Below, one piece after another: positions 7,557-35,884 of a DNA stretch of 37,082 nucleotides. A program made the position numbers and the translations under genes. The stretch is from Desulfuromonas sp. (GTDB lineage Bacteria; Desulfobacterota; Desulfuromonadia; Desulfuromonadales; BM501), in contig NZ_PKUB01000031.1 of NCBI RefSeq assembly GCF_002868845.1, forward strand, positions 26,020-63,101. The letters are read 5' to 3'. Every line of letters begins with the position of its first letter. Positions within the stretch are counted from its first letter, which is position 1. Under the pieces are notes generated by a model, which saw nothing but the letters and a program-made list of their open reading frames with translations, ran no database searches and was not told the origin of the DNA.

Positions 7557-8672
7557 GTGAAAAAGGTATACGGCGATCTTGAGATCATGCCCCTGGGGGA
7601 GCTTCTGGGATGGCTGGGGGACAGGGCGAAATCGGGCTTTCTGCGCGTCGCGCAGGAAAAGGGAGGGAAGGTCAAGGCCTTTTCCCTGCAGCAGGGCCTG
7701 ATCGATGCCTTTTCCTCCCGCCGGACCGCGGAAGAGCTGGCCGAGGCCCTGCGGTGGCCCGAAGGGCGGTTCGAATTCCGCCCCGACCTGCCTGCCGGGG
7801 CCCCCGCCTCCCGGCGCCACCTCCCGTGCGCCGAAAGCCTGCAGGAGGCCGAACAGATCAACCGGGACGCCGAACTGCGCCAGCTGCAGCTCCAGGAGGA
7901 GGCGGTGCGCAAAATCAGCCGCCAGATTCTCAAGGGAGAGATCGAACTGCCCCCCATGCCCGCGGTCCTCTCCCGGCTCCACATGTGCCTGGGCGGGATC
8001 GGGGGGTCGGCCGGCGAGGCCATGAAAATCGTCATGGCCGACCAGATCCTGACCTCGAAGATCCTCAACGTCGTCAACTCCGCCTACTACAGCCTGGTCA
8101 GCCCGGTCACCTCGCTGCAGCACGCCATCGTCATCATGGGCTTCCGCTCCCTGCTGAGCGTGATCACCACCCACGGCCTCGGCCAGGCCTTTTCGAAGAA
8201 CCGGGCCCAGGTCCAGGAGGTCCTCCGGCACAGCTTCCGGTGCGCCTTCGTGGCCAAGCAGATCGCCGCGGCGGTCGGGTGGGACGAAGAGGAGGCCTTT
8301 GTCTGCGGCCTGCTCCACGACATCGGCAAGACCGCCCTGCTCAGCCTCCTCGACGACTCCGAACTTGACGAGCCAGCCCAGGCCTCGCTCCTCGAAGAGT
8401 TCCATGCCCAGGCCGGGGTTCTCCTCGCGGCCAAGTGGAACCTGCCGGAGCTGGTCATCGAAACGATCGAATGGCACCACGAGCCCGGACAGGCGGCCAG
8501 CGGCCGCAAGGCCGTGGAGATCGTCTTTCTGGCCGACGGCCTGGTGAACGACCCCGGCCGGCTCGAGTCCCTCCTGGCCGACTGCTCCGCCCTGGAGCTC
8601 TCCAGGGAGAAGGTGGACGCGATCCTGGAGGAACTCCTCCGCGCCGAAGGGGTGCTCGACCGGGTCGCCTAG
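7557..8672 (+). CDS. DUF4388 + HDOD domain signalling protein
   Basis: A 371-residue cytoplasmic protein starting at GTG (GAGAGG 6 bases upstream). Residues 1-~90 match the DUF4388/PATAN domain (LEIMPLGELLGWLGDRAKSGFLRV, FSLQQGLIDAFSS), found in response-regulator-like proteins of Myxococcales and Desulfuromonadales. Residues ~125-320 form an HDOD domain (IELPPMPAVLSRL, DQILTSKILNVVNSAYY, HAIVIMGFRSL, GLLHDIGK). HDOD domains usually lack catalytic metal residues, but here the HD pair (H254-D255) is retained. Proteins of this kind act in motility, stress or second-messenger signalling. It is followed by an ABC transporter operon with its own promoter. Confidence 0.88.
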   Translation: MKKVYGDLEIMPLGELLGWLGDRAKSGFLRVAQEKGGKVKAFSLQQGLIDAFSSRRTAEELAEALRWPEGRFEFRPDLPAGAPASRRHLPCAESLQEAEQINRDAELRQLQLQEEAVRKISRQILKGEIELPPMPAVLSRLHMCLGGIGGSAGEAMKIVMADQILTSKILNVVNSAYYSLVSPVTSLQHAIVIMGFRSLLSVITTHGLGQAFSKNRAQVQEVLRHSFRCAFVAKQIAAAVGWDEEEAFVCGLLHDIGKTALLSLLDDSELDEPAQASLLEEFHAQAGVLLAAKWNLPELVIETIEWHHEPGQAASGRKAVEIVFLADGLVNDPGRLESLLADCSALELSREKVDAILEELLRAEGVLDRVA

Positions 8673-24959: not shown

Positions 24960-26252
24960 TTACCAGGGCCCGGACCAGGCCGGGTGCTGGCTGTTTTCCC
25001 CTGTCGGAGAGATGCGCCGGGCCCCGCTGCCGTCGTCGCGCATGAGATAAATCGCCTTGTTGCCGCCGTCGTCCAGAGAGTAGGCCAGAAAGCGGCCGTC
25101 GGGACTCCAGCGGGGGTGCTCCTTGCTCCCGGGGCCGAAGGTGAGGCGCCGCTCGCCGCTGCCGTCGGGGCGGATGGTGTAGATTTCGAAGCGCCCCTGC
25201 TCCTGGCGGCTGAAAGCGATAAGATCGCCCTTGGGGCTCCATGCCGGGGTGGCGTTGTACTTGCCCGCGGCGGTCAGGCGCCGCACCTCCCCGCTGCGAA
25301 CCCCGAGGATGAAAACGTGCGGGTTGCCCCGCCGGTCGGAGACGAAAGCGATCTCCCGGCCGTCGGGGCTCCAGCTGGAATCCACGTCGATGGCCCAGTT
25401 GTCGGTGAGGCGCTTCTCCAGGGTGCCGTCTTTTTCCAGAAGATAGATCTACGGGTTGCCGTCCTTGGAAAGGGTCGTGGCAATCTCCCGGCCCCCGGGC
25501 CGGTAGCGGCCGGCGATGTTCAGGCCCTTGCGCCGGGACAGAAGGGCCTCCTTTCCGCTGTAGATCTCCTTGCGGAAGAGGTCGGGGTTACCCCGCCGGT
25601 AAGAGGTGAAGATCAGTTCCTTGCCCACCGGCGAGAAGTCGGGGTTGAGGACGATGGAACGGTGGTCTGTGAGGCGGACCGGGTTGTGGCCGTCCACCTC
25701 AGAAAGGTAGAGCTCCTTGTGCCCGGTGCGATCGGAGATATAGGCGATGCGGGTGGCGAAGGGTCCCGGCTCGCCGGTGAGGCTCTCGAGCACCTGGTCG
25801 GCGAAGGTGTGGGCCATGCGCCGCAGGTCCTTGAGCTGGCCCACGTAGCGCCGCCCGGTCAGGAGCCGGCGCCGGGCCACGTCGTAGAGGCGGGCCTCCA
25901 GCACGAGTTCTTCACCGCGCACCGAATAGGCCCCCTTGATCAGGGACTGGGCCCCCAACAGGCGCCACTGCCCGAAATCGACGTCGATGCTCACCAGCCC
26001 GAGGCGCCGGGCGTCGCCGAGAAAGGCGTCCGGGTCGAGCAGGCTGAAAAGGCCTGAGAACTCCAGGTCGTCGGCCAACACCGCGTTCACCTCTTCGGCA
26101 ACGGCGGGCAGGGCCTTGCCGTCAAGGGGAACGAAAGCGGTCAGGGCCAGGGGGATGACCTGCTGACCGGGGGCCTGGATCTCGATCTGGCCCAGGGCGG
26201 CGCCCGGCAGCCAGAACAGCAACAGGATCAGGGACAAAAGAAAGGTACGCAT
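24960..26252 (-). pseudogene. tolB: tolB with one in-frame TAG at codon 268 (25451-25449)
   Basis: TolB is a periplasmic beta-propeller that links the TolQRA motor to Pal. The frame from ATG 26252 to TAA 24960 codes for 430 positions, the normal length. It has a signal peptide (RTFLLSLILLLFWLPGAALG), the N-terminal domain (~25-165) and propeller blades with RIAYISDRTGHKELYL and SSWSPDGREIAFVSDRRGNP. Codon 268 is TAG within TLSKDGNP[*]IYLLEKDG. TolB homologues have Glu there (NPEIY), so GAG probably became TAG. Read conventionally this gives a 267-residue product (25449-26252) and an unstarted remainder ending at 24960. The frame is continuous and the remainder well conserved. Base-call error, recent nonsense mutation and suppression are all possible. 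The start overlaps the end of tolA closely (4-base gap). Confidence 0.9.
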
Positions 26253-26256
26253 GGCT

Positions 26257-27138
26257 CTACTCGAGTAGCTCCTTGAGGTTGAACACCACCTCCCGCTCCA
26301 GGCGCCGGCCCGGCGCCTTCGGGAGTTGCTTGAGCTGGAGAACCGCCCTTTTGACCGAATCGTCGAAACGGGCCTCGCCCGAATGCTCCAGGAAGCGGTA
26401 GTCGAGAAGCTTTCCCTGAGGGTCGAAGACGAGGGCCACGGTGGCCTCCAGGTCACGGCTGGGCACCTGGTACTTGGAGAGGAGCCAGGCCTGCTTCAGG
26501 TAGTCGTGGATCCAGGCGTCGTAGGAAGTCCCCGCCTCGGTTCCGCTCCCCTCGGGCATCCCCACCGGCGCGTCGGGAACCGCGGGGGCCTGGCGGGTGT
26601 CGGAGGCGGAGAGGGCCGCGAGCTTCTGCTTCAGCTCCTCGATCTCTTTCTTGGCCTGCATCTTCTTGATCGCCGCCAGGGTGTCCTCCTCGTAGCTCTG
26701 GGACGGCTTGGCGACCTCGGGCTTCGGTTTCGGCTTGGCCTTCGGCGCCGGTTTTGCCTTGGGAACGGGTTTCGGCTTCGGCTTGGCGACCTTCGGCTTG
26801 ACCGGCTCGGGCTTGGCCACCTTGACCGGCTCGGGTTTTTTCGGCGGCGGCTTGGGCGGCTCCGGCGGCTTGACCTCGGCCTTCGGGGGTTCGGGCGCCT
26901 TGCGGGGCTTCTCGGCCTTCGGCCGGGCGTCGGGGCGGCCGGCCTGGGGGTCGGCCACCGGCAGGTTGACGAGATCGACGTAGTAGGCCCTGGGGGGCTT
27001 GGCCAGGCGGGGCTCGAAGACCCCGGTAAAGACCGCGAGCACCGCGAGGTGGACCACCAGGGAAACGATCAGCATCCGCCCCAGTTTGGGCTCCGGGTGC
27101 GTTTCGGTGCCCCGTCGTATGAAGCGGTTCTTCGCCAA
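26257..27138 (-). CDS. tolA: TolA/TonB-family linker protein
   Basis: A 293-residue protein. A transmembrane anchor lies at ~21-41 (MLIVSLVVHLAVLAVFTGVF), then a long Pro/Lys/Ala-rich stretch (~60-150, with repeats such as PKPKPVPKAKPAPK), a coiled helix (AIKKMQAKKEIEELKQKLAAL), and a C-terminal TonB/TolA-like domain (~205-293; YLKQAWLLSKYQVPSRDLEATVALVFDPQG). It transmits energy from TolQR to TolB/Pal across the periplasm. The start is TTG at 27138, with GAGG 9 bases upstream and only 11 bases after the tolR stop; the first ATG would be inside the anchor region, so TTG is preferred. Low-complexity sequence is normal for this family. Confidence 0.92.
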   Translation of the reverse strand: MAKNRFIRRGTETHPEPKLGRMLIVSLVVHLAVLAVFTGVFEPRLAKPPRAYYVDLVNLPVADPQAGRPDARPKAEKPRKAPEPPKAEVKPPEPPKPPPKKPEPVKVAKPEPVKPKVAKPKPKPVPKAKPAPKAKPKPKPEVAKPSQSYEEDTLAAIKKMQAKKEIEELKQKLAALSASDTRQAPAVPDAPVGMPEGSGTEAGTSYDAWIHDYLKQAWLLSKYQVPSRDLEATVALVFDPQGKLLDYRFLEHSGEARFDDSVKRAVLQLKQLPKAPGRRLEREVVFNLKELLE

Positions 27139-29866: not shown

Positions 29867-30646
29867 CTAGCGCGATGCGCCCTCCACCATGGCGTAGGCC
29901 GAATGATTGTGGATCGACTCGAAGTTCTAGCACTCCACACGGAACCAGCTGATCTCCGCCACGGCCTGGAGCCGTTCGGTCACCGCCCGCACGATGTCCT
30001 CGACGAACATGGGGTTGTCATAGGCCTGCTCGGTGACCGCCTTCTCGTCCTCGCGCTTGAGCAGCGAGTAGACCGGGGCGCTGCCGCAGGCCTCGACCCA
30101 CTCGATCAGGTCCTCGAGCCAGATGTGCCCGTCGTAGCGGATCTGCACGTTGATGGCGCTGCGCTGGTTGTGGGCCCCGCGCCCGCTGATCTCCCTCGAG
30201 CAAGGGCACAGGGAGGTCACCGGCACGGTGACTCCGAGGACGAAATCGGCCTCTTCGCCGATGGCGCCGATCATCTGGCACTGGTACTCCATGAGCCCCT
30301 TGGCCCGGGAAACCGGCGCCTCCTTCTCGATGAAGTAGGGAAATTCCAGCTCCACGTGGGCCCTGGAGGCCTCCAGGCGCTCCTTCATCTCCAGCAGGAT
30401 GGTATCGAGGCTCTCGATGCTGATCTCCCCCCGGTAACGGTTGAGGATCTCGATGAAGCGGCTCATGTGGGTCCCCTTGAAGTGGTGGGGCAGGTCCACG
30501 TACATGTTGATGCGGGCCACGGTGTGCTGCCGGACCTTGCTCTTGTCCATGACCACGATGGGGTAGCGGATGTCCTTCACCCCGACCTTGTCGATGGGAA
30601 TGTTGCGGGTGTCACGCTCTTTCTGCATGTCGGGCATGGTGGGCAT
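29867..30646 (-). CDS. folE2: GTP cyclohydrolase FolE2 with in-frame TAG at codon 240 (29929-29927)
   Basis: FolE2 (GTP cyclohydrolase IB) makes dihydroneopterin triphosphate for folate and queuosine. The frame from ATG 30646 to TAG 29867 codes for 259 positions, the usual length. Family motifs include FKGTHMSRF, EFPYFIEKEAPVS, TSLCPCSREIS (metal-binding Cys), GAHNQRS, and KREDEKAVTEQAYDNPMFVEDIVR. Codon 240 is TAG within WFRVEC[*]NFESIHNHSAYA; the residue there is expected to be Glu, so GAG probably became TAG. Conventional reading stops at 29927 and loses the last 19 residues, including the IHNH His that is a zinc ligand in characterised FolE2, so the truncated form should be inactive. GAGG lies upstream of the ATG. 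The gene is next to queC, which fits a shared queuosine role. Confidence 0.92.
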
Positions 30647-30707: not shown

Positions 30708-31403
30708 CTATTCCGGCTTCGACCCGGATGCGTAAGCGACCGGATCCTTCTCGCCCGCCTCGGCGAAGCCCTTGAGGCGCAGCCGGCAGGAGTCGCAGGC
30801 CCCGCAGGCCAGCCCGTCGGCGGTGGGGTCGTAGCAGGAGTGGGTCAGGGCGTAGTCGACGCCGAGCTCTCGGCCGCGCCGGATGATCTCGGCCTTGGAC
30901 AGGTCGATGAGCGGGGTGTGGATGCGGTAGCGTCCGATGCCCTCGACGGCGGCCTTGGTGGCGAGGTTGGCCATCGTCTCGAAGGCGGCGATGTACTCGG
31001 GGCGACAGTCGGGATAGCCCGAGTAGTCGAGCGCATTGACGCCGATATAGATGTCGAAGGCGCCGAGCACCTCGGCCCAGCCGAGGGCGAAGGAAAGGAA
31101 GATGGTGTTGCGGGCGGGGACGTAGGTGACCGGGATGGTCTCGTCAATGGCGCGCCCCTTGGGAACCTCGAGGTCGGAGGTCAGGGCGCTGCCGCCGATG
31201 CGGCGCAGATCGACCTCCACGACCTGGTGTTCCACGGCGCCGACCCTGGGGGCGTACTGCGCGGCCTTCTCCAGCTCCACCGAATGGCGCTGGCCGTAGG
31301 CGAAACTCATGGGGTACGGATCGAAGCCTTCGGCCCGCGCGATGGCCATGCAGGTCGTCGAGTCGAGCCCGCCGCTGTAGAGAACAACAGCCTTTTTGCT
31401 CAT
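30708..31403 (-). CDS. queC: 7-cyano-7-deazaguanine synthase QueC
   Basis: A 231-residue ATP-dependent enzyme converting 7-carboxy-7-deazaguanine to preQ0. [10 protein letters not shown] (residues ~8-17) is the PP-loop; [18 protein letters not shown] and [20 protein letters not shown] are conserved; the zinc-binding Cys cluster is HSCYDP plus CGACDSC near the C-terminus. AGGAGG lies at ideal spacing from ATG 31403. It follows pyk and precedes folE2, all on the minus strand with short gaps, so they may be one operon. Function is secure. Confidence 0.97.
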
Positions 31404-31472
31404 CGGTTCACCTCCTGGTTCACCGGGAGCATAAGACAGTTCCCTCGACCCGTCAAGGCGCAATAAACCGGC

Positions 31473-32921
<1,449 letters not shown>

Positions 32922-33469: not shown

Positions 33470-35884
33470 ATGTCGCTTTTGCCTCTTTCCAAAACCCTGC
33501 GCATCGCCCTCGCTGCCGGGGCCGCCCTCGCTCTGGCCGGCGTCGTGACCCTCATCGGGGTCTATCTCTACGTGGCCAGCACCCTGCCCCGGGTGGACAC
33601 CCTGGCCGACTACCGCCCCCCCATCGTCACCCGGGTGCTGAGCGGCGACGGCGCGGTGATCGCCGAGTTCTCCCGGGAGCGGCGCATCGTGGTCCCGGTC
33701 ACCCGCTTGCCGGAGCGGCTCATCCAGGCCTTCGTCGCCGCCGAGGACGCCCATTTCTTCGAACACCGGGGCATCGACCTGATCTCCATCCTGCGCGCCG
33801 CCCTCAAGAACCTGAAGGCCGGCGGCATCGTCCAGGGAGGCAGCACCATCACCCAGCAGGTGGCCAAGAGCCTCCTGCTGACCCCGGAGAAGAAGTTTTC
33901 CCGCAAATTCAAGGAGGCGATCCTCGCCCGGCGCATGGAGCGCAGCCTGTCCAAAGAGGAGATCCTCTTTCTTTACCTGAACCAGATCTACCTGGGGCAC
34001 GGCGCCTACGGGGTCCAGGCCGCGGCGGAGAACTACTTCGCCAAGAACGTCGAAGAGCTCTCCCTGGCCGAGTGCGCCATGCTCGCCGGCCTTCCCCAGG
34101 CCCCCAGCCGCTACTCCCCCTACCGCCACTACGAGCGGGCCAGGGACCGCCAGCGCTACGTCCTCGACCGCATGCTGGAAGAGGGCTACCTCGCCGCCGA
34201 GGAGGCGGAGGCCGCCCTCGCCGAGGAGCTGACCATCCACCCCCGGACCAACGCCCACATCGCCGGGGCGGCCTACTTCACCGAGCAGGTGCGGAGGCAC
34301 CTCGAGACGACCTACGGGGAGGAGCAGCTCTACACCGGGTGCCTCGAGGTCCACACCACCATGAACCTGGCCATGCAGCAGGCGGCCCAGGCCGCGGTGC
34401 GGGACAACCTCCACAACCACGACAAGCGCCAGGGATACCGCGGGCCGCAGCGGGTCCTGCCTCCGGAGGAGGTCGAACCCTTCCTGCTGAAACAGCAGGC
34501 CCGGCTCGAGAAGGCCCTCTCCCTGCCCGGCACCCTGATCGAGGGCGTCCTCTCCGGCGGCGACGCGGGGCACCTCGAGGTGCGGGTCGGCTCCCTGCGG
34601 GGCGAGATCCCCCTGTCCAAGAAGCACTGGGCCGGACCGATCACGGTCCTCCCGGCGGGAACGCCCCCTCGGGACCGGGCCGAAAGCGGCCGGACCGAAC
34701 TGCCGATCGGCTCCGTGCTGCTGGTCAAGCTCGAGGAGGAGCGGGAGGACGGCTCCCTCCTCCTCTCCCTGGAGCAGCGCCCCGAGGCTCAGGGGGCCAT
34801 GGTGGCCCTCGCCCCGGGCACCGGCGAGGTCAAGGCCATGGTCGGCGGCTACGATTTCGGCGAGAGCCAGTTCAACCGGGTCCTGCAGGCCCGCCGTCTT
34901 CCCGGCTCGGCGATCAAGCCGATCATCTACGCCGCCGCCCTCGACAAGGGGTACACCCCGGCCACCATCATCCTCGACACCCCCCTGATCTACAAGGAGA
35001 AGAAGGAGAGCGGGGAGGAGACCGAGTGGAAGCCGAAGAACTACGGCAAGAAGTTCTACGGCCCCACCCCCCTGCGCAAGGCCCTCGCCAAATCGTACAA
35101 CGTCATCACCATCAAGATCCTCGAAGACATCGGGGTCGGCTACGCGGCCAACTACGCCCGCAAGCTCGGCATCACCTCTCCCATCGCCCGGGACCTGACC
35201 CTGGCCCTCGGCTCCTCGGCCCTCACCCCCCTCGAGCTGGCCACCGCCTACGCCGTCTTCGCCAACGGCGGGGTCCGGGTCACCCCCAGCTATATCACCC
35301 GGGTCCTCGACCGCGACGGGCGGGTCCTCGAGTCGGTCGACCCCGGCGACTTCCCCGGAGGGCCCGAAGAGGGGCAGCGCCTAGTGCAGCTGCCTGCGGA
35401 GCGGGTCATCTCCCCGGAGACCGCCTACCTCGTCACCAATCTCATGGAAAGCGTCGTCCGCCACGGCACCGGCTGGCGGGCCAAGGCCCTCGGTCGTCCG
35501 GTGGCGGGCAAGACGGGAACCACCAACGACCTCAAGGACGCCTGGTTCGCCGGCTTCGTCCCCCAGCTGGCGACGGTCTCCTGGATCGGCTACGACCAGG
35601 AGCGCCCCCTGGGCAAAAAGGAGACCGGCTCGAAGGCCGCCGCACCGGCCTGGGTCGCCTTCATGAAAGAGGCGACCGAGGATCTGCCCCCGATCCATTT
35701 CCCCGTCCCCGACGCCATCGAGTTCCGCCCCGTCGATACGGAAACGGGCCTGCTGACCCCCGAGGACAACCTCGAAGCGAGTATCGAGGTCTTCGCCCCG
35801 GGGACCGCCCCGACCCGCTACGCCCTCGACGAGAAGCGGCCCCAGGCGGTCGATTTCTTCAAGCTCGACCTCGAAGAGAACTAG
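33470..35884 (+). CDS. mrcA: Penicillin-binding protein 1A (transglycosylase/transpeptidase)
   Basis: An 804-residue bifunctional peptidoglycan synthase. A membrane anchor lies at ~15-38; the family-51 transglycosylase domain holds EDAHFFEHRG (catalytic Glu ~92), GGSTITQQVAKSLLL and RRMERSLSKEEILFLYLNQIYLG. The transpeptidase domain holds SAIK (S480, K483), S.N (S542-Y-N544) and KTG (K681-T-G), all active-site motifs; an OB-like insert lies between. It builds and crosslinks glycan strands. The ATG at 33470 has GGAG at 6-base spacing; ATG 33458 is a weaker choice. It is monocistronic and divergent from the cytochrome gene. Confidence 0.96.
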   Translation: MSLLPLSKTLRIALAAGAALALAGVVTLIGVYLYVASTLPRVDTLADYRPPIVTRVLSGDGAVIAEFSRERRIVVPVTRLPERLIQAFVAAEDAHFFEHRGIDLISILRAALKNLKAGGIVQGGSTITQQVAKSLLLTPEKKFSRKFKEAILARRMERSLSKEEILFLYLNQIYLGHGAYGVQAAAENYFAKNVEELSLAECAMLAGLPQAPSRYSPYRHYERARDRQRYVLDRMLEEGYLAAEEAEAALAEELTIHPRTNAHIAGAAYFTEQVRRHLETTYGEEQLYTGCLEVHTTMNLAMQQAAQAAVRDNLHNHDKRQGYRGPQRVLPPEEVEPFLLKQQARLEKALSLPGTLIEGVLSGGDAGHLEVRVGSLRGEIPLSKKHWAGPITVLPAGTPPRDRAESGRTELPIGSVLLVKLEEEREDGSLLLSLEQRPEAQGAMVALAPGTGEVKAMVGGYDFGESQFNRVLQARRLPGSAIKPIIYAAALDKGYTPATIILDTPLIYKEKKESGEETEWKPKNYGKKFYGPTPLRKALAKSYNVITIKILEDIGVGYAANYARKLGITSPIARDLTLALGSSALTPLELATAYAVFANGGVRVTPSYITRVLDRDGRVLESVDPGDFPGGPEEGQRLVQLPAERVISPETAYLVTNLMESVVRHGTGWRAKALGRPVAGKTGTTNDLKDAWFAGFVPQLATVSWIGYDQERPLGKKETGSKAAAPAWVAFMKEATEDLPPIHFPVPDAIEFRPVDTETGLLTPEDNLEASIEVFAPGTAPTRYALDEKRPQAVDFFKLDLEEN

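Follow-up and report, generated by a model that had tools for sequence, protein, structure and literature searches.

An in-frame TAG in folE2 and an excess of internal stop codons in a Desulfuromonas sp. genome assembly, probably caused by consensus errors

The folE2 gene in the window (the whole stretch of Desulfuromonas sp. DNA analysed here, 37,082 nucleotides) is interrupted by an in-frame TAG, one of 40 in-frame stops that cut genes in 1,214,460 bp of the same genome (32 TAG, 4 TAA and 4 TGA). If the stops are evenly spread, the whole genome would contain about 120 of them. The best explanation of the folE2 TAG and its companions is a systematic consensus error in the assembly, which we consider likely. 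In the living cell, codon 240 most likely encodes Glu and FolE2 is made at full length, and the stop should not be taken as a sign of a broken or recoded folate enzyme before the reads are checked. As originally posed, the folE2 finding is ordinary, but the genome-wide pattern and the deletion of mutM are worth flagging to users of the genome.

The folE2 locus and its surroundings

The frame preceding the stop (29930-30646, minus strand) comprises 239 codons of a GTP cyclohydrolase type IB, with 83.5-88 % identity to the nearest relatives and 275.7 bits in the curated model NF010200 (cut-off 215). The internal TAG is codon 240 (29927-29929, minus strand). It is followed by 19 codons that still resemble those of the relatives (29870-29926, minus strand; NFESIHNHSAYAMVEGASR) and by a TAG at the usual end of the gene (29867-29869, minus strand). 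The minus-strand letters around the stop read ...GTG GAG TGC TAG AAC TTC GAG TCG ATC CAC AAT CAT TCG GCC TAC GCC.... The tail shows no sign of decay, and the match to PF02649 (337 bits, profile positions 1-260 of 260) spans the stop. The C-terminal ESIHNH/ESIHKH segment is thus present in the folE2 DNA, but it lies behind the TAG and outside the deposited frame.

In the relatives of the same order, the counterpart of codon 240 is GAG in 56 and GAA in 55 loci, i.e. Glu in all 111 (some genomes are counted twice), and the sequence beyond it runs into NFESIHNHSAYA or close variants. FolE2 was found in 57 of 58 genomes of the order, with a stop inside only in the row of the window itself, and the protein is otherwise undecayed, as it has no residue of its own at invariant columns. 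The first-pass annotation had described a TAG at codon 240 in place of an expected Glu, followed by 19 codons, the loss of the conserved ESIHNH tail and a TAG at 29867, and the sequence agrees with it in these points. The base that it proposed to check needs correction: the first base of the codon is 29929, and a look for a C at 29927 does not discriminate, because this is the third codon base and already C on the plus strand. Homologues ending naturally at codon 240, which it had allowed for, were absent from the 109 of 110 loci examined by pattern or eye; the 110th locus (L013) has the same identity values as L064 and is included among the 111 loci with Glu.

The relative L064 (in the numbering of the window protein) aligns without a shift with FolE2 of N. 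gonorrhoeae up to residue 242, which places the lost His at position 246. In that enzyme, His246 is a putative metal ligand. The label "zinc" given to this metal in the annotation is loose; PMC10882993 terms FolE type IB metal-promiscuous.

The neighbouring queC (30708-31463, minus strand) is intact, as the annotation had stated, with 193.3 bits in TIGR00364 (cut-off 150.3). The search for a compensating folE that it proposed covered a genome rated 99.84 percent complete by the tool and recovered neither a second FolE2 nor a FolE of type IA, so that this FolE2 is its sole GTP cyclohydrolase detected. According to PMC10882993, Cupriavidus metallidurans seemed unable to do without at least one FolE. 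Some 4 kb away from folE2, a part of tolB (24963-26351, minus strand) is likewise cut by a TAG (25449-25451, minus strand) of this type, at a position where the aligned relatives have Glu (27/34) or Asp (7/34). Searching viral contigs for the same DNA gave 0 matches. Elsewhere in the window, two residues specific to this genome stand at otherwise invariant columns and each corresponds to one G:C>T:A change: G295C in PBP1A (34340-34342, plus strand; 28 relatives) and L85I in pyruvate kinase (32667-32669, minus strand; 25 relatives).

Internal stops in the rest of the genome

The first hint came from the background of large protein families, where a stop fell inside the conserved domain in one of 94 response-regulator matches and one of 42 ABC-transporter matches; judging from its signature, the interrupted ABC protein is probably ZnuC-like. 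Scanning a first sample of 463,101 bp by codon usage yielded 33 candidates; 14 were kept by eye and, together with the response regulator, make 15. A further 751,359 bp yielded 56 candidates, 24 of which were kept by eye, and Lon was added from the tblastn test. Gene ends before a start codon, antisense frames and non-coding stretches were excluded, as were the ambiguous case C56:72849 and the peroxiredoxin TGA at L172:6084, a possible selenocysteine. The TGA at C52:35157 (CMD family), which may also be selenocysteine, was kept, and two stops (C4:48413 and C4:49049) share one cytochrome-like frame, so the 40 stops may represent 39 genes. The TGA at L172:6084 (plus strand) takes the place of the expected catalytic Cys of a protein that is peroxiredoxin-like by eye (FTPV*TGEM) and may be selenocysteine or another TGC>TGA change. 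Selenocysteine is also possible at the in-frame TGA at L279:15157 (minus strand) in a carboxymuconolactone-decarboxylase-family protein with the motif CPD*LAKH.

As a control, we used a related complete, single-contig genome (G012). The same coding scan of 400 kb of it gave 11 candidates and 0 judged to be interrupted genes, against 15 in 463 kb here. When G012 genes were searched by tblastn against the 1.21 Mb, 21 stops were flagged in 73,466 aligned columns, of which 13 remain after eight were discarded as antisense or beyond the gene end. The reverse search into G012 flagged four in 77,822 columns, all of them discarded for poor alignment, leaving 0. Frameshift candidates numbered two here and one in the control, so indels are not in excess. 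Taken together, these counts show a specific excess of nonsense substitutions in this genome. Single N's (17) and longer N runs (7) also occur in our 1.21-Mb sample, compared with none in 1.2 Mb of G012.

Called genes of the first sample end in TGA (166), TAG (108) or TAA (63 of 337), which shows that the internal stops are not a draw from the ordinary terminators. Uniform G:C>T:A change applied to the codon usage predicts TAG, TAA and TGA at 49:35:17 percent, from which the observed 32:4:4 departs (p = 0.0003) through a surplus of TAG and a shortage of TAA. No case of Tyr (TAC>TAA) was recognised among the internal stops, and the base preceding the internal TAGs is not unusual in comparison with GAG codons.

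The genes hit include single-copy aspS, cut by a TAA, and single-copy accD, cut by a TAG, neither of which has a second copy, and further lysC, lon, uvrA, uvrB, mfd, ilvD and tig. Family models span the stops in AspS, AccD, LysC, Lon, PilT, Tig, a 2-oxoacid oxidoreductase, CysQ, FolE2, Cmk, IlvD and a carboxyl transferase, among others; in UvrA, the parts before and after the stop both match models and share one frame, and the UvrB alignment continues through the stop of that gene. One internal TAG each is found in the nucleotide-excision-repair genes uvrA (L289), uvrB (L169) and mfd (L155), which are long, and this may be chance.

Glu is the most frequent of the residues replaced. At the 13 stops from the tblastn search, G012 has Glu six times, Gly, Ser and Asp twice each and Arg once. 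Relatives have Glu at the stops of UvrB (5/5), Cmk (3/5), ZnuC (3/3 orthologues of the LSGGE type; the remaining five of eight aligned loci belong to different ABC proteins and carry Met) and a pyridine nucleotide-disulphide oxidoreductase (3/4 orthologues, the fifth row being a non-orthologue). Gly stands at the stop of a hydrolase (4/4 orthologues, the fifth row again a non-orthologue) and Ser at that of a carboxylase (5/5), both compatible with G>T and C>A changes. IlvD, Mfd and the response regulator show mixed residues; two of the 15 query genes of the first sample had no relative in the compared set. At the AspS stop, the two solved structures shown both have Glu; at the AccD stop, the two shown have Gln, so a C>T change is possible in accD. 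Judged from the aligned residues, G>T and C>A together would explain most of the replacements, which a single reassigned codon would not. Among missense changes specific to this genome, 21 of 113 are G:C>T:A compared with 141 of 1029 in relatives, a difference that has the expected direction but is not significant (one-sided Fisher p = 0.10). Among the few residues of its own at invariant columns, G:C>T:A accounts for 4 of 6, with a paralogue dropped, a number too small to carry weight.

Origin of the stops

The genome carries only a remnant of mutM (fpg), which encodes the 8-oxoguanine glycosylase, at about 123774-124039 of its contig 18. The first 13 codons (MPELPEVETTPRG) are followed by about 56 bases and a decayed zinc-finger end (L257:7774-7812 and 7869-8039); the deletion removes about 550 bp, and the last cysteines of the zinc finger are missing. 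As a deletion with decayed remains, this is not a base-calling error. Full-length mutM is present in four of the five compared relatives, the exception being G010, and mutY is intact here. Loss of mutM raises G:C>T:A mutation.

The main rival explanation follows from this loss: real G:C>T:A changes would accumulate in a lineage without mutM, folE2 would be one of many freshly inactivated genes, and the cell would survive on outside folate or residual activity. The deletion offers a biological source for the same base change, and the spectrum of the stops is largely of the G:C>T:A type. We nevertheless regard this as unlikely, as stops in single-copy aspS and accD should be lethal, essential genes are not spared and mutY is intact. 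G010 also lacks MutM, yet its listed orthologous segments are free of stops except for one match that runs past the ilvD segment. Should any of the stops be real, they would make this anaerobe without mutM a naturally occurring example of G:C>T:A decay. A nonsense mutation or isolated error specific to folE2 and unrelated to the other stops would require a single base change, but with 39 other stops in a third of the genome there is no need for a separate cause, and we consider this explanation very unlikely.

The in-frame TAG (and TAA) could instead be decoded mostly as Glu in functional genes, since the frames are open and conserved past the stops, Glu makes up most of the replaced residues and TAG is in excess; read-through of in-frame stops in bacteria is argued for in PMC7918605. 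Against this, all 45 tRNAs found by the genome scan (E <= 0.001) have ordinary anticodons, none of them CTA or otherwise able to read a stop. The set is without Ala(TGC) and Ile(GAT), which are probably in an unassembled rRNA operon, where a suppressor would be possible. PylS matched with only 26.8 bits, far below its cut-off of 178; 13 of 14 control genomes also match at the same threshold, one of them above the cut-off. MttB had no match in the genome. The combination of PylS and a CUA tRNA was thus not found, and decoding by pyrrolysine or a suppressor tRNA was dropped as a candidate after the genome search. Reassignment of UAG/UAA to Glu was likewise ruled out, because Ser and Gly positions are also hit and TAG terminates 108 of the 337 called genes. 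The sequence past the folE2 stop has no notable RNA structure (z = 0.27) and no Rfam match, and a motif search of the 1.21-Mb sample did not find release factor 1. Altogether we judge read-through or recoding highly improbable. Least probable of all is a combined scenario, in which a mutM-less lineage has really lost more than 100 sense codons, mostly GAG, and tolerates this even in essential genes by UAG/UAA read-through through means unseen in the assembly.

It is the stops in single-copy aspS and accD, which a living population should have purged, that argue for an error after sampling; because the stops fall in essential genes too, consensus error accounts best for them. Single-base errors of the G-to-T type on either strand, affecting about one in every thousand susceptible bases across the genome, would convert codons for Glu (GAG/GAA), Gly (GGA) and Ser (TCG) into stops. 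They may have arisen in the DNA sample, the library or the assembly, for example from oxidised guanine in low-input DNA. The excess of TAG over TAA stands against a uniform G:C>T:A error.

The reading proposed in the first-pass annotation is thus partly supported. It centred on the enzyme, folate and queuosine; given the 39 further stops that cut genes in 1.21 Mb, the folE2 stop tells nothing particular about any of these. The genome-wide pattern seems to favour the annotation's own counter-explanation, a base-calling error. If the stops are errors, extrapolation would give about 120 spurious pseudogenes and some 2,000 wrongly changed bases in this genome, which matters for claims on metabolism or gene loss drawn from it.

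Several known systems resemble this pattern in part. Pyrrolysine decoding of UAG shares the in-frame TAG, but here no PylS exceeds the cut-off, MttB is absent and the positions are ordinary Glu positions. The bacterial read-through cases proposed in PMC7918605 have conserved frames broken by single stops, as here, where in contrast dozens occur in one genome, with a G:C>T:A cast and none in a control relative. A mutator of the mutM/mutY type has the same base change in common and mutM is deleted, but mutY is intact here and essential genes are hit unsparingly. The 8-oxoguanine G>T sequencing artefact gives the same excess of single-base G>T/C>A changes without an excess of indels. Artefacts from oxidised guanine are known as low-frequency read errors, whereas those supposed here would need to have entered the consensus itself, as might happen when template molecules are very scarce or coverage is low.
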